The notes beneath the pieces are model-generated. The model was not told where the DNA came from, did not search any database, and saw only the letters and a list, made by a program, of their open reading frames with translations. A stretch of 34,297 nt of DNA from an uncultured Pirellulaceae bacterium (lineage in GTDB: Bacteria > Planctomycetota > Planctomycetia > Pirellulales > Pirellulaceae). The DNA is taken from contig CALDHM010000030.1 of assembly GCA_937941455.1 (NCBI GenBank), positions 1-34,297 of the forward strand, given 5' to 3'. The position numbers and the translations under genes were made by a program. Shown one piece after another: positions 5,352 through 22,433 of this stretch; within the stretch, counting starts at the first letter, position 1; each line of letters begins with the position of its first letter.

Positions 5352-6674
5352 TTGAGTTGGATTTTCAATGCGATTTATCTGGCGGCGCTGTGTTTCAGTC
5401 TACCTTGGATTTTCTATCGGGTTGCATTTTTAGCGAAGGGCCGCCGCGGCTGGCGGCAGCGACTGTTCGGAAGAATTCCCGCCCTTGATTCGGACCGCCC
5501 CACGGTTTGGTTCCACGCGGTCAGCGTCGGCGAACTGCAATTGCTCGTCCCGTTGATCAAGCGATTGTCCCAGTTGAGACCCGAGTGGCAAGTTGCCATT
5601 TCCACCGCGACAGACTCGGGTTACCTGCTGGCCCAACAACGTTTTGCCGCCCACACGGTGTTTTTTGCCCCGCTGGATTTTAGTTGGGCTGTCCGGAGAG
5701 TGCTGCGACGGCTTCAGCCACGGCTGATCGTGTTGGCTGAGTTGGAACTCTGGCCCAATCTGTTGTCAATCGCCAAACAACAAGAAGTGCCGGTGATCGT
5801 CATTAATGGGCGGATGGGCGATCGGAGTTTTCGTCGATATCGCTGTTTGCCGGGCTTCACGAAGTCGATGCTCCGGTCGTTAGCCAAGATTTCTGCTCAA
5901 AATAACGAGTACGCTGTTCGCTTTGTAGCGCTAGGGGCTGAGCCATTGCGAGTCACCATCAGTGGCAACATCAAATTCGATGGAGCCTTCAATCCCGACT
6001 ATGTCCAGTTGGGACGGCGTTTGCGGGAGACATTCCAGTTTCGCGACGGCGACGTTGTGTTGGTTGCCGGGAGTACGCAGCCCGAGGAGGACGAGATGGT
6101 TGTCGAAGCCTTTGCGGCCGTTCGGGCACAATATCCGCAATTGCGCCTGGTCGTTGTCCCTCGGCATATGCACAATGTTCCGCCGCTGATCGAACGACTG
6201 CAGTCGATGGGAGAAACCTATGTATGCCGCAGTCACGTGAATGGAGGTTTTGCCGTCGATCCGATGCTTCGTCCGATTGTTGTTGTCGATGTTGTGGGGG
6301 AATTAGCGGGATGGTGGCAGGTCGCGGATTTAGCCTACGTCGGTGGTAGCATGGGCAAGCGGGGCGGGCAGAATATGATTGAGCCCGCCGCGGCTCGCTG
6401 CGCGGTTTCGTTCGGGCCGCGGACGGAGAATTTTCGCGATGTCGTATCGATGTTGCTGGCTGGTCATGCGGCGATGGTGGTTCATGATCGAGCAGAACTC
6501 GAGGCATTCATGGTGCGAGCGATCGTCGATGAACGGTGGCGAAAATCGATGGGTTCGGCGGCTCAACGGATAGTCGCCGAGCAACAAGGCGCCACGGATC
6601 GGACTTGTCAGCTTATCATTGAGCAGTTGGAGGGTGGCTCTCTCACGGCCCGCGGCCGGCGAATGGCCGCTTGA
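5352..6674 (+). CDS. waaA: 3-deoxy-D-manno-octulosonic acid (Kdo) transferase
   Basis: A GT30-family enzyme that transfers Kdo from CMP-Kdo to lipid A precursor at the cytoplasmic face of the inner membrane. The TTG start gives 440 residues, typical of the family. The N-terminus (SWIFNAIYLAALCF...PWIFYRVAF) is the usual membrane anchor, followed by a basic RRGWRQRLFGR. The N-terminal catalytic domain shows WFHAVSVGE (the Glu of SVGE is the presumed catalytic base), STATDSGY, and LAELELWPNLL. The C-terminal nucleotide-binding domain shows VAGSTQPEEDE, VVVPRHMHN, DLAYVGGSMGKRGGQNMIEP and FGPRTENF. It lies 32 nt after secA and is probably co-transcribed. Its presence argues that this organism makes Kdo-containing lipopolysaccharide. 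It opens the run of glycan genes that continues to 12944. Confidence 0.93.
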   Translation: MSWIFNAIYLAALCFSLPWIFYRVAFLAKGRRGWRQRLFGRIPALDSDRPTVWFHAVSVGELQLLVPLIKRLSQLRPEWQVAISTATDSGYLLAQQRFAAHTVFFAPLDFSWAVRRVLRRLQPRLIVLAELELWPNLLSIAKQQEVPVIVINGRMGDRSFRRYRCLPGFTKSMLRSLAKISAQNNEYAVRFVALGAEPLRVTISGNIKFDGAFNPDYVQLGRRLRETFQFRDGDVVLVAGSTQPEEDEMVVEAFAAVRAQYPQLRLVVVPRHMHNVPPLIERLQSMGETYVCRSHVNGGFAVDPMLRPIVVVDVVGELAGWWQVADLAYVGGSMGKRGGQNMIEPAAARCAVSFGPRTENFRDVVSMLLAGHAAMVVHDRAELEAFMVRAIVDERWRKSMGSAAQRIVAEQQGATDRTCQLIIEQLEGGSLTARGRRMAA

Positions 6675-6853
6675 TGGCTGCTAGCTTGGACTGGCTGGCG
6701 CTGTAGGGGGAATAATCCCTGCGTATCGATCTTTCTCTCAAGAAAAGATTTAGGGGTTGTGGAGAAAGTGCCGATTAAGTTATTAACTACGGTTTGGAAG
6801 AGTCGGCGGCCGCAGCTTTTTCACACCGGATGAATTCGGAGGTTTTGTAATCG

Positions 6854-9448
6854 TTGGCGATGGTGGCCAACCAAACTCAGAATGGACTCATGAGCACAAA
6901 AGAAACCGCCCGCGAACTGTTTTCGCTTGACTGCAATCGGCTAGACGATCCGCGTCTGATCAATTTTCATGAATTAGAGCAACACGCGGGCCGGATCTTT
7001 CGTTGGTCGGAACCGGTCTCGATGATTCGGTTGCCCTTAGCCCCGGGTCATTTTCGGATCGTGCTGGATACCGGGGGTTTACGCGGCAGCAATGCCGATT
7101 TCGCCTATCAACTCCACTGGAACGACTACCTCATTCCCGCATCGGCAATCAAGGTCAGCAATGGGCTGATCGAATTTGTGGTTTCGGCAGGGATGGCATC
7201 GTCGTCCTTTGAACAGCGACTAACCATCAGTTGCAAACCGCTGCATGCAGAGAATGGCCGACGCTTGCTGGGTATGCCGCTGTGCAGCCTGCGAGTTTAT
7301 GAGGTAGATGCCGAGCCGGTCAATCAAATTCTCAACATGGAATTAGCTCGGGCCAACTTGAAAGGGCAAAGGCCCAAGCGTCGCAGGTGGTTCGGGTCGC
7401 GCACACCCGAGCCGTCTTTACCGATTTGGCAGGTCCGAATTCCGCAATCGGAAATCGTTACGCGCGACATCGCCCCGCAGACGCATCCGCATTGCGAGCG
7501 GGTAGTGGTGGCGCCATGTGAGATCAATTCTCGCCATGGCACCGGTCTGTTGATCCAATATTTGATCAAGGATTTTCGCGATGTTGCCACCGTCAACTCG
7601 CTCCGTTGCTACAACGATGATCGCGTTGCGTCACGCGTCCATCATTGCTTGCCCAAGCACAACATGAGCCGGGCGGGGATTTACGACCAAGTCTATACTT
7701 GGTTTGGCGCCGCCCCCCCCTCGCGGGCTTATGTGGTGCCGTACTTCAAGTCGGATTTGTTGGTCGCCTTGGCATTGCGGGATCTTTTTTCGGTGAAGAT
7801 TTTCCTGCATATCATGGATGACAACTGCTTGTATGGTCAGGAGATTCCCACGCCGCTGTTGGCCGAAGCGTTGGACAAGTCAGATTTTGTCGCCGTGATT
7901 TCGCCGGAAATGCGGCAGGCTTACGAGCAGATGTTCGGCAAGCGGATGTGGTTGCTCCCGCCGATCGTTCCGGATCGCTTGATTCCCGAGGGGCTGATTG
8001 CAACAATCGACCAGCGTGAAACACCGCGCGAGAGAGTCCCTGAGATGCGGAAAACGTTGGGGCAGAAACTACGCGCCACCTGGAAAACGCTGCGTCATTG
8101 GGGGCAGTCAGCGAACGCCGTGACGGTCACCCCGCCTCGAGGTATTCTGATCGGTAACGTTTGGGATCGGGTTTGGCTCGATCGCTTGCGGAAGACGATT
8201 CGAGAAAGTGGTTTGCAATTGGATTGGTACAGCAATAATCCCGAGGCGGTCTGGCTCAAAGACTCCATTACGGATCTGGCGTCGGACGGCATTCATTTGC
8301 ACGATCCCTTGTGGGGCCAAGATTTGGTGAACGAACTGCGGTGTCGGCCTTATGCCATCATGCCAACCAGCGAGTTGGATGGTCGCGGCGAGAAGGAAAG
8401 TATCGCCCGGCTGAGTTTGCCAAGCCGAGTTCCGTTCATGATCGCAACCGCGCAAATTCCGCTGATCGCCGTGGGGAGTCCAGAGACTGCCGCAGCGAAA
8501 TTCATCGATCGCTTCGAGTTGGGGGCGACGGTGCCTTACTCGGGTAGCCATCTGCGCGAGGCGGTACAGCAGATTTGCCAGACCGATCGGCAAATGGCGA
8601 TTCGCCAACGAGCGGCCCAAATTGCACAATCGTTCAAGGCCGACGACGTCGGCAACTGGGCTTGGAAATCGTTGGAGCGCGGCGAGCCGATCGATCAGCG
8701 CTTCGAAGCGCTATTCCCCCCACGGCCCGGTGATTTCGCCTGTTTCTTCGACCCCAATCCACCGCCGCAGGTGCATTGGAGTTTTCGCGACACATGGCTC
8801 ATGCTCAATCGCCTAAAGCTGCAGAATTTCTATCCCCAACTTGTGATCGACGTCGGCGCGTCGACGGGAGTGTGGTCGTGGACGGCCGCCTCGGTGTTTC
8901 CTAAAGCTAAGTTTGTGATGGTGGACCCGATGATGTCCCGTTACGACCAAAACGCAAGAAACTACTATTTGCGGGCGTTCTCGGAGGTTGAGTTGGTGGA
9001 GGCCGCTCTGAGCGATACTTGCGGCGAGACGGAGATCCTGGTTTCCAACGACTTGTACGGTACCTCGCTGCTGAAGGTCGATGAAAAAACGAGAAAATCC
9101 AACGTGGCGACGGTTGAAGTATTAACCCTCGACGAGTTGGCTCGCCGCCGCAACTTGACGGGGCGAACCTTGCTAAAAATCGATGTTCAGTACGCCGAGC
9201 ATTTAGTGCTGGCCGGAGGCAAACAATTCGTCAAGGAGCAAGTGGATGCAGTCATTCTCGAGTTGACGATCGAGCGAGAGCATCCCCAAGCGAAAACCTA
9301 CCGCGAAATGTTGGACTACATGGAGGAACTCGGATTCGCGATGGTGGACGAAATGCAAGGCTGGCGCGATCCGGTAACAGGTCGCTTGGAGCAGAAAGAT
9401 ACATTGTTTATCCGCAAGGATCTGAACCGAGCCCGCAAGGCAGCCTAA
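6854..9448 (+). CDS. Glycosyltransferase fused to FkbM-family methyltransferase, with N-terminal accessory domain
   Basis: An 864-residue multidomain protein. (1) Residues ~45-145 form a beta-rich domain with FRWSEP (49-54), APGH (63-66) and IPASAI; the same motifs recur in the C-terminus of the next gene. (2) Residues ~220-610 look like a GT-B glycosyltransferase: SRHGTGLL, VVPYFKSDLLVAL, HIMDDNCLYGQEIP, VAVISPEMRQAY and a late GILIGNVWDRVW segment; the exact GT family is uncertain. (3) Residues ~655-860 are an FkbM-type SAM-dependent O-methyltransferase with the SAM motif IDVGASTGVWSW (from 665), VDPMMSRYDQNARNYY, EAALSD and KIDVQYAE (D777), where FkbM proteins usually have Gly in place of Tyr. 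Start: TTG at 6854, 11 nt after GGAGG; an ATG at 6860 is also possible. The sulfotransferase gene follows after 16 nt. Likely builds and O-methylates a surface glycan in the cytoplasm. Confidence 0.78.
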   Translation: MAMVANQTQNGLMSTKETARELFSLDCNRLDDPRLINFHELEQHAGRIFRWSEPVSMIRLPLAPGHFRIVLDTGGLRGSNADFAYQLHWNDYLIPASAIKVSNGLIEFVVSAGMASSSFEQRLTISCKPLHAENGRRLLGMPLCSLRVYEVDAEPVNQILNMELARANLKGQRPKRRRWFGSRTPEPSLPIWQVRIPQSEIVTRDIAPQTHPHCERVVVAPCEINSRHGTGLLIQYLIKDFRDVATVNSLRCYNDDRVASRVHHCLPKHNMSRAGIYDQVYTWFGAAPPSRAYVVPYFKSDLLVALALRDLFSVKIFLHIMDDNCLYGQEIPTPLLAEALDKSDFVAVISPEMRQAYEQMFGKRMWLLPPIVPDRLIPEGLIATIDQRETPRERVPEMRKTLGQKLRATWKTLRHWGQSANAVTVTPPRGILIGNVWDRVWLDRLRKTIRESGLQLDWYSNNPEAVWLKDSITDLASDGIHLHDPLWGQDLVNELRCRPYAIMPTSELDGRGEKESIARLSLPSRVPFMIATAQIPLIAVGSPETAAAKFIDRFELGATVPYSGSHLREAVQQICQTDRQMAIRQRAAQIAQSFKADDVGNWAWKSLERGEPIDQRFEALFPPRPGDFACFFDPNPPPQVHWSFRDTWLMLNRLKLQNFYPQLVIDVGASTGVWSWTAASVFPKAKFVMVDPMMSRYDQNARNYYLRAFSEVELVEAALSDTCGETEILVSNDLYGTSLLKVDEKTRKSNVATVEVLTLDELARRRNLTGRTLLKIDVQYAEHLVLAGGKQFVKEQVDAVILELTIEREHPQAKTYREMLDYMEELGFAMVDEMQGWRDPVTGRLEQKDTLFIRKDLNRARKAA

Positions 9449-9464
9449 GTCCCCGCTAACGATC

Positions 9465-10895
9465 ATGATTATTCGTTCGTTCGAATCCTACCATTCCTTT
9501 GCTGATGCTGCGCTCGAGTGCGGTTCGGACGAGCCGCGTCTCTATTTTCTGCACATCCCGAAAACGGCGGGCACAAGCGTGCGGCATTGGTTGATGGACC
9601 GGTTCGCTCACGATGATTTGTTGCCCTGCGATGTGATCGAAGAGTTGGAAAAACGAGCGCCTGAGGAGTTCCCCAAATACCGATTGATCAGTGGTCATTT
9701 CGGCTGGAATATCGAGAAGTATTATCCAGAACCCTTGAATGTCGTGACTTGGCTGCGCAATCCAATCAAGCGACTTCGTTCGAATTTCGCCTACATCCGC
9801 GAGAATGTCGACTATCTGTCGCAGATCGCTGCTAACCTCGGTTGCCATAATTGGATCGAGTATTACCAGCTCTGTGTCAGCCATGCCGATCACGAGATTC
9901 TTGAAGACCCGAATTATTTGGGATTCAGCGATAATCTGCAAACGCGTTATTTATCGGGTATCTTCCCGCAATTGGAACCGATTGAATTGGACGAGGCGAT
10001 TCTCGAGCGGGCCATCTCCAACCTTGAGCAGTTGTCATTCGTGGGGATTTGCGAGTGGATGGACGCGTCCATCGATTTAGCTTGCCTCGAATTTCAAGAG
10101 AATCATCGACCGCTGACAGCCTGGCACAATCCGACGAAACGCTCGATTACGTCGCACGGTCCCAAACAAGAAGAGGACGCAGCCATCGCCGCCAGCGAGC
10201 GTTTCGACATGCGTCTCTATGAGCATGCTTGCAAGCTCTTCGAACAGCGGATTGAGAAAATTCGCGAACTGTTACCGAGTTGCTATCGCGGGGAGTCTGC
10301 GAGCCAATTCCTGAGTGACTATCGCGACCCGAATCGGCTGGAGCAGATTCGCCTAGCGATCGATGAACAATTCCAAGCAAGAAACAATCCCAAGATCCGC
10401 CGGGAACGCGGAATTTTAGATTTTCGGCACCCGATCTACCAGAGTGGTTGGAATAGCCGCTCAGCCTTGGGGGATGGTAAGACGATCATTCGTTGGGCGG
10501 GTCCCAAGCGGCGTAGTCGAGTTTTTTTCCCCTTCGCACCGGGACACGATTATCGGGTCGAATTCACGATTCGCGTGCTGGCGAATTACCATTTTGTAAA
10601 AACGATGCAGATTTTTTCTGGGCCGTGGCGTCTTCAGCATGAATACGAGGAACTGCCGCGCCGAGAAAACTGTTTCCGTCAGTATCAAGTGAACTTCGTC
10701 GTGCCTGCCAGCGCGATCGATCCTCGAAGATTCATGACCGAGATCGTGTTCGAGGTCGATGGAGAATTGGTTGAATTGGGCTCAGGCAGCGGCATGCTAG
10801 GAAGTTTCGCCACGGACGCATTTCGATTTGCGGCGATCCGTGACGGTGCTAGGGCGCGGGAGCCCGGCTTGACGCAACCCGTTTCCGAGTCCTAA
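9465..10895 (+). CDS. Sulfotransferase (family 2-like) with C-terminal accessory domain
   Basis: A PAPS-dependent sulfotransferase, probably sulfating a carbohydrate. Residues ~25-280 carry the 5'-phosphosulfate loop HIPKTAGTSVRHWL (30-43, K33) and the 3'-phosphate motif VVTWLRNPIKRLRSNF (93-108, R98 and S106). GHFGW lies between them, as in eukaryote-like family 2 carbohydrate sulfotransferases. Residues ~310-476 form a separate beta-rich domain with IIRWAGP, FAPGHDYRV and VVPASAI. These match, in the same order, the N-terminal domain of the preceding glycosyltransferase/methyltransferase. The start is ATG at 9465, 16 nt after the upstream stop; the ABC exporter follows after 66 nt. Co-transcription is likely. 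The target sugar cannot be read from the sequence. Confidence 0.83.
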   Translation: MIIRSFESYHSFADAALECGSDEPRLYFLHIPKTAGTSVRHWLMDRFAHDDLLPCDVIEELEKRAPEEFPKYRLISGHFGWNIEKYYPEPLNVVTWLRNPIKRLRSNFAYIRENVDYLSQIAANLGCHNWIEYYQLCVSHADHEILEDPNYLGFSDNLQTRYLSGIFPQLEPIELDEAILERAISNLEQLSFVGICEWMDASIDLACLEFQENHRPLTAWHNPTKRSITSHGPKQEEDAAIAASERFDMRLYEHACKLFEQRIEKIRELLPSCYRGESASQFLSDYRDPNRLEQIRLAIDEQFQARNNPKIRRERGILDFRHPIYQSGWNSRSALGDGKTIIRWAGPKRRSRVFFPFAPGHDYRVEFTIRVLANYHFVKTMQIFSGPWRLQHEYEELPRRENCFRQYQVNFVVPASAIDPRRFMTEIVFEVDGELVELGSGSGMLGSFATDAFRFAAIRDGARAREPGLTQPVSES

Positions 10896-10961
10896 CGCGA
10901 TCGCTGACTCGCAGTTTCGGCCCCGCTCCAGAACGATTCGCCCAGTCATATCAGCAGTTCC

Positions 10962-12944
10962 ATGAAGCCATTTTTTCGAATTGTTATCCATGCACTTCGT
11001 TACAAGTGGTCGATTGCGGGAGCGACTCTCGCTTCGTTCCTGATCGCGGTGCTGTGGGGAGCCAGTATGTCGACGATCTATCCGGTCGTCGAGATCGTTC
11101 TCGATGGTCAGACCGGCAGCACTTGGGTGAATCGAGAAATCAGCAAGGCCGAGAAAACCATCGCCGATTTGACGGCCGAAGTCCAGCGGCTTCGTGATGC
11201 GCAGGCGACCTTGCAGGGAGTCGAGCTGGTCCGCAATCAAACGAGCTTCGACCGGATCACCAACCGCATCGGGGCCGAGCAACGGGCCTTGGATTGGTAC
11301 CGCTGGGTCCAGCCCTGGATGGATCAATACTCGCCGGCGACCCCATTTCAAACCTTGCTGGTAGCCCTGGCATGGCTGGTGGTTACGTCATTGATTAAGG
11401 GAATCCTGCTGATCATCAGCACCTACCTGGTAGCTCGCGTTGCGAATCGGACCGTGGCCGATTTGCGTCGGGTCTATTACCGCAAGGCTCTGGAGATGGA
11501 CCAGCATCGTATCGACACGTTGGGAACGTCGAACATGATGACCCATCTGTCCCACAATATGCTAATGATCAGCGCAGGTTTGCAGGCGTTCTATGGCCGG
11601 ATGATTCGCGAACCCCTCAAAATGATTGCCTGCCTGGCCTGGGCTGCCTGGATATCCTTCCCTTTGCTGTTGATTTCTTTGGCTTCCTTGCCCCTCGGCG
11701 CCTATGTCATACGCCGATTGACGAAAAGCATGAAGCGGTCGACGGCTCGCGAAATCGAAGGCATGTCTCATATTTTCCAAACTCTGATGGAAACGCTCGG
11801 GGCTCTGAAAACGGTCCGAATTTTCAATCGCGAAACGTCCGAACGAAAACGCTTCAAGAGCAATGCCCAAAGCCTCTACCGCATCTCGCAAAAGATCGCC
11901 TTCTATGACTCTCTGATTCGTCCGATCACTGAATTGCTCAGTATCGTGGCGATCGCCATGGCGATTCTAGTCGGTGCTTATCTGGTGTTGAACCAGGAGA
12001 CCCATCTGTTCAATATCAAAATGTCGGATCGCCCGCTGTCGCCCGGTCAACTTTTGCTCTTTTTCACGATGTTGGCTGGAGCTAGCGATCCGGCCCGCAA
12101 GATGAGCGAGGTGATCAATCAGCTGATTCGCGGCGGCATGGTCGCCGAGAGCCTCTTCAATACTTACGATGTCGCACCGGAAATCGTGGCTCGTAAACCG
12201 CACCAGCCTGTGCCAGAGCATTGCCGCTCGATCGAGTTCCGGCAGGTGACGTATGGCTATAACCACAAGCAGCCTGTCGTTCGTGATGTCTCCTTCGAAG
12301 TTCCCTTTGGCCAAGCCATCGCACTCGTCGGCGGCAATGGTTGCGGCAAGTCGACGCTAATGAATTTGCTGGCGAGGTTCTACGAAGTACAACAGGGAGC
12401 GATCCTGATCGACGGCGTCGACATTCGCGACATCAATCCTCGCAAATTGAGACGTCAGATAGCTTGGGTCACTCAAGACGCTTGCCTTTTCAAGGGGACG
12501 ATCTGGCAAAACATTGCCTACGGTTCGAAGCATGCCACCGCGGATGAGATCCAAGCTGCCGCAGACTTGGCCATGGTGACATCGTTCGCCAAGAATCTAC
12601 CGAAAGGATTCGAAACACAGGTCGGGGACAACGGTCGGCTGTTGTCCTCGGGACAGCGGCAGCGAGTCGCTCTCGCCCGGGCCATCCTTGCCGATCCGCG
12701 CATCTTAATCCTCGATGAGGCGACGAGCCAAATCGATGGTCAAACAGAAACTGTTTTGCACGAGGGACTGGCTCAATTCATTCAGTCCCGCACGACCTTT
12801 GTCGTGACGCATCGGGTCAGTTCGCTGAAGCTGGCCGACCGTGTGTTGATCATGGATGCGGGCCGGGTGATTTTTGATGGCACAACCGACGAAGCCCGTC
12901 GCGAATCCGAGACCTTTCGGTTTCTTTTTCACAAGGCGGCTTAG
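10962..12944 (+). CDS. ABC exporter (fused TMD-NBD, MsbA-like) with long coiled-coil loop
   Basis: A half-transporter of the ABC exporter type that would act as a homodimer in the inner membrane. The NBD shows Walker A VGGNGCGKST (456-465), signature LSSGQRQR (561-568, with Ser for the usual first Gly), Walker B ILILDEATS and a switch His in VVTHR. The membrane domain spans about 15-390. Between TM1 (about 15-45) and TM2 (about 130-156) lies an ~80-residue loop rich in E, K, Q and R (REISKAEKTIADLTAEVQRL...), predicted to form a coiled coil outside the membrane; typical MsbA-like exporters have only a short loop there. At 660 residues it is longer than the ~580 usual for MsbA. Sitting last in the glycan cluster, it may flip a lipid-linked glycan or lipid A; this is inference. 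Confidence 0.88.
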   Translation: MKPFFRIVIHALRYKWSIAGATLASFLIAVLWGASMSTIYPVVEIVLDGQTGSTWVNREISKAEKTIADLTAEVQRLRDAQATLQGVELVRNQTSFDRITNRIGAEQRALDWYRWVQPWMDQYSPATPFQTLLVALAWLVVTSLIKGILLIISTYLVARVANRTVADLRRVYYRKALEMDQHRIDTLGTSNMMTHLSHNMLMISAGLQAFYGRMIREPLKMIACLAWAAWISFPLLLISLASLPLGAYVIRRLTKSMKRSTAREIEGMSHIFQTLMETLGALKTVRIFNRETSERKRFKSNAQSLYRISQKIAFYDSLIRPITELLSIVAIAMAILVGAYLVLNQETHLFNIKMSDRPLSPGQLLLFFTMLAGASDPARKMSEVINQLIRGGMVAESLFNTYDVAPEIVARKPHQPVPEHCRSIEFRQVTYGYNHKQPVVRDVSFEVPFGQAIALVGGNGCGKSTLMNLLARFYEVQQGAILIDGVDIRDINPRKLRRQIAWVTQDACLFKGTIWQNIAYGSKHATADEIQAAADLAMVTSFAKNLPKGFETQVGDNGRLLSSGQRQRVALARAILADPRILILDEATSQIDGQTETVLHEGLAQFIQSRTTFVVTHRVSSLKLADRVLIMDAGRVIFDGTTDEARRESETFRFLFHKAA

Positions 12945-14679: not shown

Positions 14680-17205
14680 ATGAGCGTTGCAGCCGTCAAT
14701 CAACTCCAAATGCTTCATCAGTTGTTGGCACCGCACGGGCAGCAGCATCTTCTGCGGCACTGGGATGAATTGAGCGCCTCGCAGCAAATGGCCTTTGCCG
14801 AACAAATAACGGTGATCGATTGGGACGAGATCGACCAGTTGATCAGTGACAGCTATGGGGCCGGAGGTTCCGTCGAGCGTTTTCAAGATTTAGAGCCCCC
14901 TCGAGCGATCACGATCGATGAATCGCGAGATCCGCGGCGCCGACGAGCGGCCAGAAATGCCGGGATGCAGCAGTTGCAGCAGGGCAAGGTCGCCTTCGTT
15001 TTGACTGCGGGAGGGCAGGGAAGTCGCCTGGGCTTCGAGCATCCTAAGGGCCTGTACCCGATCGGTCCCTTCAGCCGTCGCTCTCTGTTTCAAGTCATGA
15101 TCGAGCATGCTCACGCGCGAGCCCGGCAAAGTGGCAGCCGCATTCCGATCTACATCATGTCGAATCCCGAATCCGATGGAGAGATTCGCGAGTTTCTCGA
15201 TCGCCATGAAGCGTTCGGATATCCACCGGATGATATTCGCGTTTTCTGTCAGGGGATGATGCCGGTCGTCGAGATCGGAACGGGCCGGGTCCTGCTGGCG
15301 GAAAAGCATCGTCTGTCGGTCAGCCCCGATGGGCATGGCGGAGTGCTGCGGGCCTTGCATCGGTCCGGCGCCATGGAGGACATGCGTCGCCGTGGCATTG
15401 AGACGATTTTCTACGGTCAAATCGACAATCCGTTGTTGCAGGTTTGCCATCCTGAGTTGATAGGATTTCATCTTCTGGAGGAGGCGGAGGTTACGACTCA
15501 GGTCGTCAGAAAAACGCATCCGCAGCAACGGGTGGGTAATGTCGTCTCTCGGGGCGGACGTTTGTCCATCATCGAGTACAGCGAACTGCCTGACGAACTG
15601 GCTCAGCAGACCAATCCCGACGGCAGTCTACGATTGTGGGCAGGCAACATCGCGGTTCACGTCTTCAACCGGGACTTTCTCGAACGAGCACTGGCTCATG
15701 CCGAAAGCTTGCCCTTTCACCGTGCCGAGAAGAAGGTCCCTTTCCTCGATGCGGCGGGGAATCTTGTCCAACCGAGCGAAAACAATGCAATCAAGTTCGA
15801 GCAGTTCGTCTTCGACTTGCTTCCGTTCGCGGAGCGAGCCCTGGTCTGCGAAATCGCAGCGTCCGAGGGATTTGCGGCTCTCAAGAACGCCTCGGGGTCT
15901 GCCGCGACAGAGACCCCAGAATGGGTCCGGCAAGCAATCCTGGACTTGCATACCGATTGGTTGAAAAACTGCGGGGTCCGTATACCCGATGGTGTGACGG
16001 TTGAGCTTGATCCCGCCGTCGCTGTCGATCAAGATCAATTGCGGGAGCGTATCGATTTGCCAGCGGAAATTTTGACCAGCCAGTACCTTACAGAGCGCGG
16101 GCAACTGAGAGATCGCGAGCGCTCACCGTTGATGGTCACGATCATGGCAGGAGGAGCGGGGACGCGCTTTTGGCCCTCAAGTCGCCAGGGGTATCCCAAG
16201 CAACTCCTGAAGCTAGTGGGGGAGCGAACGATGTTGCAAGCCACGGTCGATCGGCTCCGCGGACTATGCAATGTCGAGGACATTTTGATCGTTTCCAACC
16301 AAGCCCTGATCAAGGAAATTCGCCATCAATTGCCGGAGGTCCCGGCCACGTCGATCTGGGGGGAACCTTGCAAACGCGACACGGCTCCCTGCGTAGGATT
16401 GGCTGCTCACTGGAGTTTGCACCGCTCTCCGCAGGCGACTCTGGTCGTGATGCCTGCCGACCATGTGATCCGGCCTACGGAACAATTTCAAGAGGCACTG
16501 CGCTACGCTCACCAACTGATAGATGATGACCCCGAACGCATCGTCACGTTCGGCATTCGACCCACTTATCCTGCCGAGGTCTATGGGTATATCGAGCGCG
16601 ACGATGAGCGAACGATTGCCGGACAATTTCCCACGTTCTCGGTAAAACGATTTTGCGAAAAGCCGAATGCCGAGCGTGCGCGAGAATTCTTGGACTCCGG
16701 GGGTTTTTATTGGAATTCCGGCATTTTCGTGTGGCGCGCCGATACGATCTGGAAAGCGTTAAGCCAATTCGAACCCGAAATGGCAGCACACCTGGGGTTG
16801 ATCGGCGAGCGGATCGGCCATTCGGATTTCTCCGCAGTGTTTCAACGTGAATTTTCGCAAATCCGCGGCAAGTCGATTGACTACGCTGTACTCGAACGCT
16901 ACCAGCGGGTCGTGGTCATCGAGGCACCATTCGATTGGGATGATGTCGGCAACTGGACCAGTTTAGAGCGACTGAACCCTCAGGATGCCGACGGCAACAC
17001 CATTCAAGGGCGGCATTTGGGGATCCGTACCAGGCGATCGATCGTGATGGCGCGGCAGGAACATCTAGTGGCTACGATCGGAGTCGAGGATTTGATCATC
17101 GTGCAGACACCCGATGCTACGCTCATCGCGAAAAAATCCGACGAAGCAGCCGTGAAAAAAATCGTCGAACTGATCGAGCAAAACGGCTGGCAGGACTATC
17201 TCTAA
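14680..17205 (+). CDS. Fusion of UAP1-like UDP-sugar pyrophosphorylase and mannose-1-phosphate guanylyltransferase
   Basis: An 841-residue protein with two nucleotidyltransferase domains. Residues ~1-470 are a UDPGP-family enzyme of the UAP1 (UDP-N-acetylhexosamine pyrophosphorylase) type: LTAGGQGSRLGFEHPKG (from 108), YIMSNPESDGE, FCQGMMP, SPDGHGGVL, YGQIDNPLL and NAIKFEQFVFD. Residues ~485-841 are a mannose-1-phosphate guanylyltransferase: TIMAGGAGTRFWPSSRQGYPKQ (from 488), VMPADHVI, GYIE, FCEKP, WNSGIFVW, SIDYAVLE and WDDVGNW. The C-terminal isomerase cupin of bifunctional ManC/AlgA proteins is absent. The protein should make UDP-GlcNAc (or a similar UDP-sugar) and GDP-mannose in the cytosol, two donors for glycan assembly. 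No Shine-Dalgarno is visible at the ATG. A hairpin follows at 17245 in the convergent gap with carB. Confidence 0.87.
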   Translation: MSVAAVNQLQMLHQLLAPHGQQHLLRHWDELSASQQMAFAEQITVIDWDEIDQLISDSYGAGGSVERFQDLEPPRAITIDESRDPRRRRAARNAGMQQLQQGKVAFVLTAGGQGSRLGFEHPKGLYPIGPFSRRSLFQVMIEHAHARARQSGSRIPIYIMSNPESDGEIREFLDRHEAFGYPPDDIRVFCQGMMPVVEIGTGRVLLAEKHRLSVSPDGHGGVLRALHRSGAMEDMRRRGIETIFYGQIDNPLLQVCHPELIGFHLLEEAEVTTQVVRKTHPQQRVGNVVSRGGRLSIIEYSELPDELAQQTNPDGSLRLWAGNIAVHVFNRDFLERALAHAESLPFHRAEKKVPFLDAAGNLVQPSENNAIKFEQFVFDLLPFAERALVCEIAASEGFAALKNASGSAATETPEWVRQAILDLHTDWLKNCGVRIPDGVTVELDPAVAVDQDQLRERIDLPAEILTSQYLTERGQLRDRERSPLMVTIMAGGAGTRFWPSSRQGYPKQLLKLVGERTMLQATVDRLRGLCNVEDILIVSNQALIKEIRHQLPEVPATSIWGEPCKRDTAPCVGLAAHWSLHRSPQATLVVMPADHVIRPTEQFQEALRYAHQLIDDDPERIVTFGIRPTYPAEVYGYIERDDERTIAGQFPTFSVKRFCEKPNAERAREFLDSGGFYWNSGIFVWRADTIWKALSQFEPEMAAHLGLIGERIGHSDFSAVFQREFSQIRGKSIDYAVLERYQRVVVIEAPFDWDDVGNWTSLERLNPQDADGNTIQGRHLGIRTRRSIVMARQEHLVATIGVEDLIIVQTPDATLIAKKSDEAAVKKIVELIEQNGWQDYL

Positions 17206-20400: not shown

Positions 20401-20699
20401 AGGGCCAGGTTCAGCGCGGTTTGGCCTCCAAGGGTGGGGAGGATTGCGTCGGGCCGTTCCTTGGCGATGATCTTCTCGACGAATTCCCAGGTTAGCGGCT
20501 CGATGTAGGTCCGTTCGGCTGTGCCGGGATCGGTCATGATGGTTGCCGGATTGCTGTTGACCAGAATCACTTCGTAACCTTCTTCACGAAGTGCCTTGCA
20601 CGCTTGGGTCCCCGAATAGTCGAATTCGCAGGCCTGCCCGATGACGATGGGACCGGAGCCGATGATAAGGATTTTTTTGAGATCAGTTCTGCGAGGCAC
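17436..20699 (-). CDS. carB: Carbamoyl-phosphate synthase large subunit
   Basis: Makes carbamoyl phosphate for pyrimidine and arginine synthesis, using ammonia delivered by CarA. The 1087 residues match the usual ~1070. The two homologous ATP-grasp halves are both visible: the first opens with [20 protein letters not shown] and the second (from ~565) with [63 protein letters not shown] and [18 protein letters not shown] are present. The C-terminal MGS-like regulatory domain (~940-1075) is present. The start is GTG at 20697-20699 with AGGAG (20708-20712) 8 nt upstream. It is divergent from the CAP-protein gene across 222 nt. No carA is in the window. Confidence 0.98.
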
Positions 20700-20707
20700 C
20701 CTGCTAA

Positions 20708-20712
20708 CTCCT
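20708..20712 (-). promoter_or_regulatory. Ribosome binding site fixing the GTG start of carB
   Basis: On the minus strand AGGAG lies 8 nt before the GTG at 20697-20699. Confidence 0.75.
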
Positions 20713-20921
20713 GCCTTGGGGTTGAATCGAAGTCTGGGAAAATCTGCAAATTCTTGAGCCTATCAGTAAACAGCCGGGCTGATCAAGTGGCCGAAAGATC
20801 GGAAAAACAGCGGTTTAGCTGGCAAAAAAAAAGATCGCAAATTCCGATAAATATGCTAAGTTTTATTAACAAACCGCATTCTTTGCCGCATCACTCTGGG
20901 ACAGAGAGAGGAACTATTGCC

Positions 20922-22433
20922 ATGTCACTTCGCCGACCCGGCTGCACCGACCAGCCGCTCAGTTATCAGGAAATGGAGCCGCGCCGTTTGTTGGCTGCGG
21001 CGAATCCCTCGAATTTCGATCAGTATGTGATCGAGTTGATCAACTTGGCTCGCACGGATCCCGCCGCTTATGCTGCGCGACTTGGGATTGATCTCAACGA
21101 AGGCTTACCGGCCGGAACGATTTCGTCAGCCCGTAAGCAACCGCTCGCCTTGAACCGGTTCATCACCGATGCGGCGCAAAAACACTCCGCGTGGATGCTG
21201 GCCAATAACATCTTGTCCCACACGGGTATCAACGGCACCAATCCTGGCCAGCGGATGCAAAATGCGGGTTACGTTTTCACCCCTCCTAGTAGTTGGTCCG
21301 AGAATATCGCCGTGCGGTCGACCAATGGAACGGTCAACGTACTGGAGTTCACCAAGTCGTTGCAGGACGCTCTGTTTGTTGATCGAAACTATCCGGGCCG
21401 TGCTCACCGGGTCGTGATGATGGACCCGAACTGGAAAGAAATCGGCGTTGGTGTCGTGGTCGGCAAATACAAAGGCAACAATGGCGTGATGCTGACCCAA
21501 GATTTCGCGTACTCCGCCGGACATTCATTTTTGACAGGTGTCGGCTACGCGGATACCGTGACGCGAGATCACTTTTATACGCCGGGCGAAGGCCTGGGTG
21601 GGATCACGATTACGGCGATTCGAGACGGCGGCGGGCAGACGTTCACAACCACCACCACCTCGTCGGGCGGCTACAGCCTGCGCTTGGCTCCCGGCCGCTA
21701 CAGCATCATGGCCTCGGGCGGCGGTTTGGGCCAATCACAATTCCTGCCCAATGTGATGATCGGGGCGGAAAACCGCAAGATCGATTTTGTGCAGGGAGTC
21801 GTTCGCCAAGCTCCCGAGGTGGCCGTGTTCGGGAATGGTCAGTCGATCATTCACGCCAACAATCAACCCTCACTCGCACAGCACACGCATTTCGGCTCCG
21901 CCAACGTGGGCGCGAACGGAGTTACCCGCACCTTCACGATTCGCAATCACGGCAATTCGAAGCTTTCTTTGACCTGGAACCCGTTGGTGATCACGACGAA
22001 CCCGCGCGATTTCCAAGTCATCTCAATGCCGTCGGCCAGTATCCCTGGGGGGGGGAGCACGAGCTTCACCGTTCGCTTCACTCCGAGTGCAGCGGGCTTG
22101 CGAACTGGCCAAATCCGTTTCGGAAACAACGATAGCAACGAGCATCCGTTTTTGATCAATATTGCCGGGGAAGGGACGTCGAGCATGCCCCCCGCAGGAA
22201 TGTTGCGGCCGGGGGATGCACCCGGTTCACGCGGCGGCGGGGGAGGTGGCGACAGTGGCGGCAACGGTTTTTCAATGCTGTCGCGTAATCAAGAGAATCG
22301 CCAGCTCAACTTAGCCGGTTCGGTGAAGCGTGCCAATTTTCCGCTAGATCAGCTAGATCAGTTTGTGGCCATTTGGAGCAAAGTATCCGACGAATCCCCG
22401 ACGTCTTACGATTTCGAACTGAGCCTCTGGTAA
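20922..22433 (+). CDS. Secreted CAP-domain protein with LEPR-XLL-type N-terminus
   Basis: A 503-residue extracellular protein. Residues 18-26 read MEPRRLLAA, matching the LEPR-XLL motif that planctomycetes carry at the N-terminus of many large surface proteins. Residues ~35-205 are a CAP (SCP/PR-1) domain: YVIELINLARTDP, LNRFITDAAQKHSAWM, LSHTG, WSENIAV, GRAHRVVMMDPNWKEIGVG and TQDFAY, keeping the His and Glu residues of the CAP cavity. Residues ~222-275 resemble a carboxypeptidase-regulatory-like beta-sandwich (GGITITAI...SSGGYSLRLAPGRYSIMASG). Residues ~300-420 are a choice-of-anchor/ASPM-SPD-2-Hydin-like domain (TFTIRNHGNSKLSLT, FTVRFTPSAAGLRTGQIRFGNND). A Gly-rich linker precedes a short C-terminal tail without a recognisable sorting signal. 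The ATG at 20922 was chosen because the LEPR motif then sits near the N-terminus and AGAGAGG lies upstream; the open frame extends further upstream without family support. Confidence 0.85.
   Translation: MSLRRPGCTDQPLSYQEMEPRRLLAAANPSNFDQYVIELINLARTDPAAYAARLGIDLNEGLPAGTISSARKQPLALNRFITDAAQKHSAWMLANNILSHTGINGTNPGQRMQNAGYVFTPPSSWSENIAVRSTNGTVNVLEFTKSLQDALFVDRNYPGRAHRVVMMDPNWKEIGVGVVVGKYKGNNGVMLTQDFAYSAGHSFLTGVGYADTVTRDHFYTPGEGLGGITITAIRDGGGQTFTTTTTSSGGYSLRLAPGRYSIMASGGGLGQSQFLPNVMIGAENRKIDFVQGVVRQAPEVAVFGNGQSIIHANNQPSLAQHTHFGSANVGANGVTRTFTIRNHGNSKLSLTWNPLVITTNPRDFQVISMPSASIPGGGSTSFTVRFTPSAAGLRTGQIRFGNNDSNEHPFLINIAGEGTSSMPPAGMLRPGDAPGSRGGGGGGDSGGNGFSMLSRNQENRQLNLAGSVKRANFPLDQLDQFVAIWSKVSDESPTSYDFELSLW

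Follow-up and report, generated by a model that had tools for sequence, protein, structure and literature searches.

The stretch analyzed here, termed the window throughout, comprises 34,297 nucleotides (nt) of contig CALDHM010000030.1 (GenBank assembly GCA_937941455.1) from an uncultured bacterium of the Pirellulaceae, and corresponds to contig C30 of a 4.04-Mb genome that is 96% complete (G000, hereafter the own genome; other genomes are likewise designated by G numbers). It harbors waaA, encoding a 3-deoxy-D-manno-oct-2-ulosonic acid (Kdo) transferase, followed by a gene for a protein in which a glycosyltransferase (GT)-like part is fused to an FkbM methyltransferase domain (hereafter the fusion), a sulfotransferase gene and a gene for an ATP-binding cassette (ABC) exporter (Table 1). 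In the original prediction, these four genes were taken together as one candidate system for the Kdo transfer, glycosylation, O-methylation, sulfation and export of a lipid-linked surface glycan. The positions then assigned to them, their common orientation and the gaps of 179, 16 and 66 nt between them are exactly reproduced in the open reading frame (ORF) calls. The set is flanked by secA, which ends 32 nt before waaA, and, downstream of the exporter, by metK and an AGX-ManC fusion.

Table 1. Genes, domains and shared intergenic block of the locus, numbered as in the window.
Feature	Position	Strand	Basis and remarks
waaA (Kdo transferase, GT30-like)	5352-6674	+	TTG start; PF04413, 198.9 bits against a cut-off of 23.9
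Shared block in the waaA-GT gap	6753-6779	+	alignment of the window and G001 gaps
GT/FkbM fusion, 864 amino acids, three domains	6854-9448	+	TTG start, or ATG at 6860; PF05050, model, fold search, family alignment
N-terminal beta domain of the fusion, like a carbohydrate-binding module (CBM)	6941-7303	+	about residues 30-150; motif FRWS.P ... R.LG.P; profile matches
GT-B fold domain of the fusion	7490-8686	+	residues 213-611; structure match
FkbM methyltransferase domain of the fusion	8849-9337	+	residues 666-828; PF05050, TIGR01444
Sulfotransferase, 476 amino acids	9465-10895	+	ATG start; match to heparan sulfate (HS) 6-O-sulfotransferase (6-OST) profile, structure
Sulfotransferase domains	within 9465-10895	+	catalytic, about residues 20-276; CBM-like C-terminal, 313-461
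ABCB-type exporter, clade B paralogue	10962-12944	+	ATG start; PF00005 and PF00664 well over cut-off

The conserved unit at this locus is the fusion together with the sulfotransferase. Both genes are adjacent in three genomes from two genera, namely the own genome, G004 and G356, the relatives sharing 49-53% and 32-33% identity with the proteins of the window. In each of the three, the neighbor of the fusion is the sole hit of the sulfotransferase profile A2 at E 1e-10; this holds for the four candidates scored in each genome, and sequences from G000 and G004 went into A2 itself. With about one such gene among several thousand, a figure estimated from genome size and not a formal null, chance adjacency is unlikely. 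The pair is located on a different contig from waaA in G004, and in G356, which belongs to another genus of the family, the fusion gene comes after a gene for a NAD-dependent epimerase and before the sulfotransferase gene, 31 nt from the latter. More broadly, the GT family stands beside some sulfotransferase at five of seven loci (G000, G004, G356, G287, and G111): G287 has a different, weakly scoring sulfotransferase 135 nt after the fusion (PF00685, 22.7 against a cut-off of 22), and two GT relatives in G111 precede three sulfotransferases in a row. At the G318 locus, a second FkbM gene directly upstream and an adjacent GT2 gene were seen, and no sulfotransferase, on inspection of the ORFs and with Pfam on four neighbors. 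Conservation of gene order in related genomes, proposed at the outset as a check on the four-gene set, is thus found for the pair in G004 and G356, and G001, the nearest relative, retains waaA, the fusion, the ABC gene and metK in that order, three of the four genes, with the sulfotransferase missing; the complete set recurs in no relative, the own genome being the only one among the loci examined where all four genes are adjacent.

The fusion belongs to a rare family, with full-length matches in only 3 of 60 relatives (own genome included). A profile of its first two domains, applied at E 1e-5 to 396 genomes of the order, finds nine, six by the GT part and three by the N-terminal domain only, and a GT-domain profile finds a single genome, the own one, among 392 of the phylum. 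In these samples, the best four (A2, order), three (fusion profile, order) and four (phylum) candidates per genome were scored, such that weaker copies may escape; G001 figures in neither 396-genome result and comes from other searches. Viral contigs, scanned with one pattern, yielded no relative of the GT domain, and the fusion matched ten plasmid records, of which the five listed match the FkbM part alone. The family alignment comprises six full-length sequences (G000, G001, G004, G356, G287, and G318) and the two GT-only relatives of G111.

The C-terminal part of the fusion is readily assigned, with PF05050 at 52.8 bits (cut-off 22.7) and TIGR01444 at 95.7 bits (cut-off 37.7). For residues 1-665, no Pfam match was obtained at E 10; likewise, a profile of the GT part found nothing in the Protein Data Bank (PDB) better than E 0.1, and the full fusion profile gave nothing convincing against PDB sequences. 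The structural model places an N-terminal beta domain, a GT-B domain and the FkbM domain in this order. Its GT-B domain is recognized by Foldseek (E 3.2e-11), and the fold comparison (VIA) gives Z 26.3 with HepE (root-mean-square deviation, rmsd, 3.7 over 334 residues), about 25 with BshA, MshA, and PglA, and 22.6 with WaaG (rmsd 3.8 over 319 residues).

The partner protein is probably a sulfotransferase, as judged from its family profile and its modeled structure. In Pfam it had no match at E 0.001, the only hit being the Gal-3-O-sulfotransferase family at E 0.06, under its cut-off; PF03567 (Sulfotransfer_2) does not match the window protein and recognizes its G356 relative (31.6, cut-off 22). 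The family profile, built from 11 sequences, leads to HS 6-OST (5t03, E 1.3e-25) and to HS 2-O-sulfotransferase (2-OST; 4ndz, E 8e-12), and the catalytic domain of the model (predicted local distance difference test, pLDDT, 81.9) matches their folds (VIA) over 230 and 237 residues at Z 17.4 and 17.7. Residues invariant in the 11 sequences include F28, H30, K33, G36, H78, L97, R98, P100, R103, and S106, and the profile position of H78 faces a histidine in both 5t03 and 4ndz. K33, G36, H78, R98, and S106 are taken here to be putative residues of the site for 3'-phosphoadenosine 5'-phosphosulfate (PAPS) together with the active-site histidine. Since the putative PAPS loop starts about 30 residues from the N-terminus, its position would fit a cytosolic enzyme. 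APS (adenosine 5'-phosphosulfate) kinase, the source of PAPS, is encoded in all nine genomes checked. A recent foreign origin of the sulfotransferase gene was also considered; none of the other seven genes measured has a lower GC content (0.526) or a lower GC content at third codon positions (0.604), but it departs only slightly from them, and this origin was not retained. Two sulfotransferase-like stretches can also be found within a single ORF of 1061 amino acids in G075 (L203:7735-10920).

Both enzymes carry a CBM-like domain in addition to their catalytic parts. That of the sulfotransferase resembles CBM22 and CBM35 in fold (Z about 9, rmsd 3.0-3.6 over 121-127 residues), although unrelated proteins of this common fold reach Z of about 8 and the fold shows no function by itself. 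The sets of CBM-like domains from the fusions (A9) and from the sulfotransferases (A10) are related in profile comparison with a probability of 89% (E 2e-6, for a single comparison), and a third set, from proteins of G019, G367, and G139 (A11), is linked to both (A9-A11, 99.6%; A10-A11, 93%); control comparisons with the sulfotransferase catalytic domain gave 0.04% for A9 and 0.5% for A11. Moreover, a G019 sulfotransferase ends in a domain to which both window domains are similar (z 8.0 and 7.0). No Pfam model matched the CBM-like domains of the window, nor seven further copies at E 1, and profiles of the domain found nothing convincing among PDB sequences. The same FRW domain is also found C-terminally in GT2-like, sulfotransferase-GT2 and other proteins (G019, G367, and G139; L080, L214, L215, and L216).

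Regarding the exporter, the original prediction had called it MsbA-like. It scores 386.9 bits on the MsbA model TIGR02203 (E 1.5e-115), under the equivalog cut-off of 602, and a paralogue of the own genome on contig C47 scores higher (413 bits, also under 602). P-glycoprotein entries rank ahead of MsbA structures among its PDB matches, the latter having E 8e-81 at best. The own genome has two exporter copies that match over the full length, and the window exporter falls in a separate clade B of eight members, monophyletic with support 100/100, in a tree in which the bootstrap is not fully settled, the C10 copy of the own genome and one G111 row form long branches, and L003 and L109, for which the ORF filter retained nothing, were left out along with L005-L008. 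An identification as MsbA is consequently rejected on scores, paralogue and clade. With a threshold of 50% identity, clade B was found in six of the 60 genomes, counting the own (best 20 candidates scored, weaker copies may be missed), and also in G356 and G287. At all eight loci it stands beside a glycosyltransferase gene or within 2 kb of one, i.e., the fusion in G000 (with the sulfotransferase gene between) and in G001, and a GT4-type gene in G002, G004, G016, G033, G356, and G287; two of these GT4-type neighbors were identified with Pfam and the rest by sequence match to them. Beside the own clade-A copy on C47, the one locus inspected, no glycosyltransferase gene was seen. Clade B is present in five of the five family genomes found with the fusion, which upholds the link originally drawn between exporter and fusion. 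Upstream of the clade-B exporter, a DnaA-like ORF, named by eye, can be seen in G356 (L224:6858-8306), G287 (L225:10931-12502), and G002 (L123:4745-6634).

The position of waaA is quite another matter. Although PF04413 recognizes the protein clearly, it does not reach the NCBIfam equivalog cut-off (best 305.5 against 438). Among 30 waaA loci, the best-scoring from a search of 60 genomes with the own genome included, secA lies at most 1.5 kb upstream at 27, own genome again included, and the fusion adjoins waaA at two only, in the own genome and in G001. At three loci the fusion is absent and metK lies no more than 1.5 kb from waaA, so that the three genes between waaA and metK in the window look like an insertion between older neighbors; the idea of metK and the AGX-ManC fusion as dedicated partners of the set was set aside on this count. 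In the waaA-GT gaps of the window and G001, alignment reveals a common block, GGGGTTGnG-N7-TGCCGATTAAG, whose pattern is found at only 7 of 216 loci, all of them copies of those two gaps; this block may serve as a promoter, or in some other regulatory role, for a separate transcript, although two related sequences cannot prove function. From gene neighborhoods, waaA is probably a housekeeping bystander and not part of the unit. A single pathway from waaA to the exporter as a conserved unit was accordingly rejected on the synteny counts, and Kdo transfer as a member of the set is not borne out, the fusion being away from waaA in G004 and G356 as well. What stands of the one modified-glycan system originally proposed is the fusion-sulfotransferase pair, as found in G000, G004, and G356, and the co-occurring exporter.

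Taken together, these observations make it probable, on balance, that one glycan is synthesized, methylated and sulfated in the cytoplasm and probably exported by the clade-B transporter, with waaA as a bystander. Both the fusion and the sulfotransferase would act in the cytoplasm on this glycan. The GT-B domain, to judge from its fold, would transfer a sugar from a nucleotide-sugar donor, and the FkbM domain, as expected from its family, would methylate the product with S-adenosylmethionine. The methyl group need not go to oxygen, as the original prediction had it, one FkbM enzyme being reported to N-methylate (PMC9259500). Sulfate would then be moved from PAPS onto the glycan by the sulfotransferase, a step suggested by family, fold and PAPS-site residues and the strongest of those proposed. 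The related CBM-like domains of the two enzymes probably hold the same glycan. The finished and presumably lipid-linked glycan would probably be flipped by the exporter; this is the weakest step, suggested by the repeated proximity of clade B to glycosyltransferase genes and by its presence in genomes that have the fusion. As the synteny suggests, waaA and metK would be older housekeeping neighbors between which the three genes were placed. A more specific version can be hypothesized, in which the CBM-like domains recognize the end of the growing glycan, a methylated and sulfated cap is added, and the product is passed to the dedicated ABCB exporter; this remains speculative and is rather unlikely in that precise form. 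Some O antigens are methyl-capped and exported upon recognition by a CBM. The capping supposed here would parallel this, but the reading domain, carried by the transporter there, would be carried by the enzymes.

Several results weigh against parts of the proposed cytoplasmic synthesis and modification of one glycan. The fusion model is of modest confidence (pLDDT 74.6, predicted template modeling score 0.51), the relative placement of its domains being unreliable. Foldseek also matched UDP-GlcNAc 2-epimerases, and a shared fold is no proof of glycosyltransfer. The EX7E motif is typical of GT4 enzymes; at this spacing, no pair of columns in the family alignment has E in at least six of the eight rows (the site was not placed by structure). 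With no conserved pair seen in this alignment, the assignment of the GT part as a glycosyltransferase, which is probably correct, is founded on fold and context. As for the CBM-like domains, the pairwise similarity between those of the window fusion and sulfotransferase is weak (z 4.1, with none of 200 shuffles scoring as high). The G004 pair does no better than shuffled sequence (z 1.0, a score reached by 35 of 200 shuffles), and the G004 sulfotransferase domain stays at that level with each of the three fusion domains (z 1.0-1.3). Similarity of the window sulfotransferase domain to the two GT2-type copies of G019 is likewise low or no higher than for shuffles (z 1.8 and -0.6). The pair itself is broken in G001, where Pfam on five neighbors and a protein search detected no sulfotransferase at the locus, the fusion and exporter genes being 153 nt apart, and where the sulfotransferase search gives only a weak match elsewhere (E 9e-4). 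Since the fusion and exporter are kept there with no sulfotransferase beside them, sulfation would be optional. Finally, the five genomes with fusion and clade B represent two genera, and kinship may explain the co-occurrence; the exporter lies on a different contig from the fusion in G004, G356, and G287; no clade-B exporter accompanies the GT family in the two genomes from outside the family, G318 (77% complete) and G111; and the converse, the exporter without the fusion, is found in G002 (77% complete), G016, and G033. Because of these last three genomes, the exporter may serve a broader glycan pathway.

These same three genomes can be used to argue that the exporter is unrelated to the pair and serves a different glycan, made with the GT4-type genes that it neighbors elsewhere. 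Such genes are beside it or within 2 kb in the six genomes named above, and the own genome has a GT4-type relative on contig C33. This explanation leaves aside, however, that clade B accompanies the fusion in every family genome found with it, and that the exporter gene directly follows the pair in the own genome (66 nt) or the fusion in G001 (153 nt). A separate role for the exporter is the less likely reading.

In the version put forward originally, all four genes would modify one Kdo-based lipopolysaccharide core, acting on a sugar linked to lipid A. Since LpxK is encoded in nine of nine genomes, lipid A synthesis in general is likely; furthermore, the fusion and exporter do follow waaA in the own genome and in G001, and WaaG, a lipopolysaccharide core glycosyltransferase, is among the matches of the GT-B fold. 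The secA-waaA pairing is nevertheless kept regardless of the fusion, and the fusion is not beside waaA in G287 either. In addition, the C47 paralogue fits the MsbA model better than the window exporter, and the block shared with G001 in the waaA-GT gap fits a separate transcript. Modification of a Kdo core is therefore unlikely, and it is far less probable still that a protein or natural product, and not an envelope glycan, is the target of glycosylation, methylation and sulfation by the pair. This last idea draws on the fact that FkbM enzymes act on natural products, one of them N-methylating a peptide backbone, according to the accessible part of one report (PMC9259500), and on the window pair being small for a polysaccharide cluster. 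It is countered by the sulfotransferase being nearest, among solved structures, to glycosaminoglycan sulfotransferases, by the CBM-like domains on both enzymes, and by Pfam detecting no polyketide or peptide-synthetase domain in the seven proteins from secA to AGX-ManC.

Other features were recorded in the window. No Rfam family reached its gathering score. In the region, 15 consensus terminators were predicted against a shuffle mean of 11.7, i.e., near shuffle level, and 12 consensus promoters against 4.9, above it; neither count was used as evidence. At 14680-17205, a UDP-sugar pyrophosphorylase (UDPGP) is fused to a mannose-1-phosphate guanylyltransferase (ManC) in a single ORF of 841 amino acids; this fusion is also present in G001 (73%), but G006 has two overlapping ORFs instead, and the UDPGP-type ORF is separate in G036 and G048. 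The ORF at 20604-22433, of 609 amino acids, scores 77 bits against 45 for a choice-of-anchor D domain (NF012200) and also gives a weak hit of the YkwD type. The ORF filter keeps the longer of overlapping frames and may drop real genes, such as metK in L009 (92% identical) and secA in G011.

Sulfated polymers of this general kind are not without precedent. A literature search covering titles and the beginnings of abstracts, with most subscription journals outside its coverage, returned no description of this gene set. In the parts of the sources that were accessible, the way in which bacteria make sulfated glycosaminoglycans is described as poorly known (PMC10483923), glycosaminoglycan-like sulfated polymers are described from a bacterium of the Planctomycetes-Verrucomicrobia-Chlamydiae (PVC) group and from granular sludges (PMC7356697; PMC10483923), and some planctomycete metagenome-assembled genomes from Shark Bay have sulfotransferase genes, most orders there being without them (PMC9723792). 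The planctomycete outer membrane has been argued to be an asymmetric bilayer, in a text whose accessible part does not name waaA, kdtA, msbA, or lpxK (PMC3422733). The available portions of PMC12555021 and PMC4807772 add little.

The closest cluster by description is that of Pontiella sulfatireligans F21, also of the PVC group, a putative cluster for a sulfated glycosaminoglycan-like exopolymer that was detected chemically (PMC7356697). Glycosyltransferases, a methyltransferase and a sulfotransferase are likewise combined there, but the cluster is larger, with fifteen gene abbreviations, eight potential hexosaminyltransferases and tuaB, and the accessible part of the paper mentions no GT/methyltransferase fusion; the likeness is drawn from the published description (PMC7356697). 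Similarly, the xss cluster of Synechocystis combines glycosyltransferases with sulfotransferases, two in number, and gene disruptions show its role in the sulfated exopolysaccharide synechan (PMC8205485). As far as the available text goes, xss relies on a Wzx/Wzy system with eight glycosyltransferases and no methyltransferase is named, in contrast to the ABCB-type exporter and GT/methyltransferase fusion of the window, although cyanobacterial ABC-type clusters with sulfotransferases are also reported (PMC8205485).

At the level of single proteins, the window sulfotransferase shares 24% identity with HS 6-OST (rmsd 4.4) and 19% with HS 2-OST (rmsd 3.6) over the residues aligned in fold, but it is bacterial and has an additional CBM-like C-terminal domain. 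The GT-B domain of the fusion resembles HepE, BshA, MshA, and PglA (Z 24-26, 325-337 residues, rmsd 3.6-4.7); it differs from these GT4-type GT-B enzymes, to which it is 6-13% identical, in that no conserved EX7E pair was seen in its family alignment and in that it is fused to a CBM-like and an FkbM domain. The exporter, close to MsbA and other ABCB exporters on TIGR02203, differs by its score under the MsbA cut-off and by its separate clade beside a second paralogue. Synteny corrects the proposed link of the set to Kdo and lipid A. The GT/FkbM fusion and its HS-6-OST-like partner constitute a small, testable enzyme set, and the CBM-like domain provides a marker for finding others. With regard to known systems, the kind of system is thus already known; what marks this locus as a variant of it is the fusion of three domains, the relatedness of the CBM-like domains on the two enzymes and the likeness of the partner to HS 6-OST.

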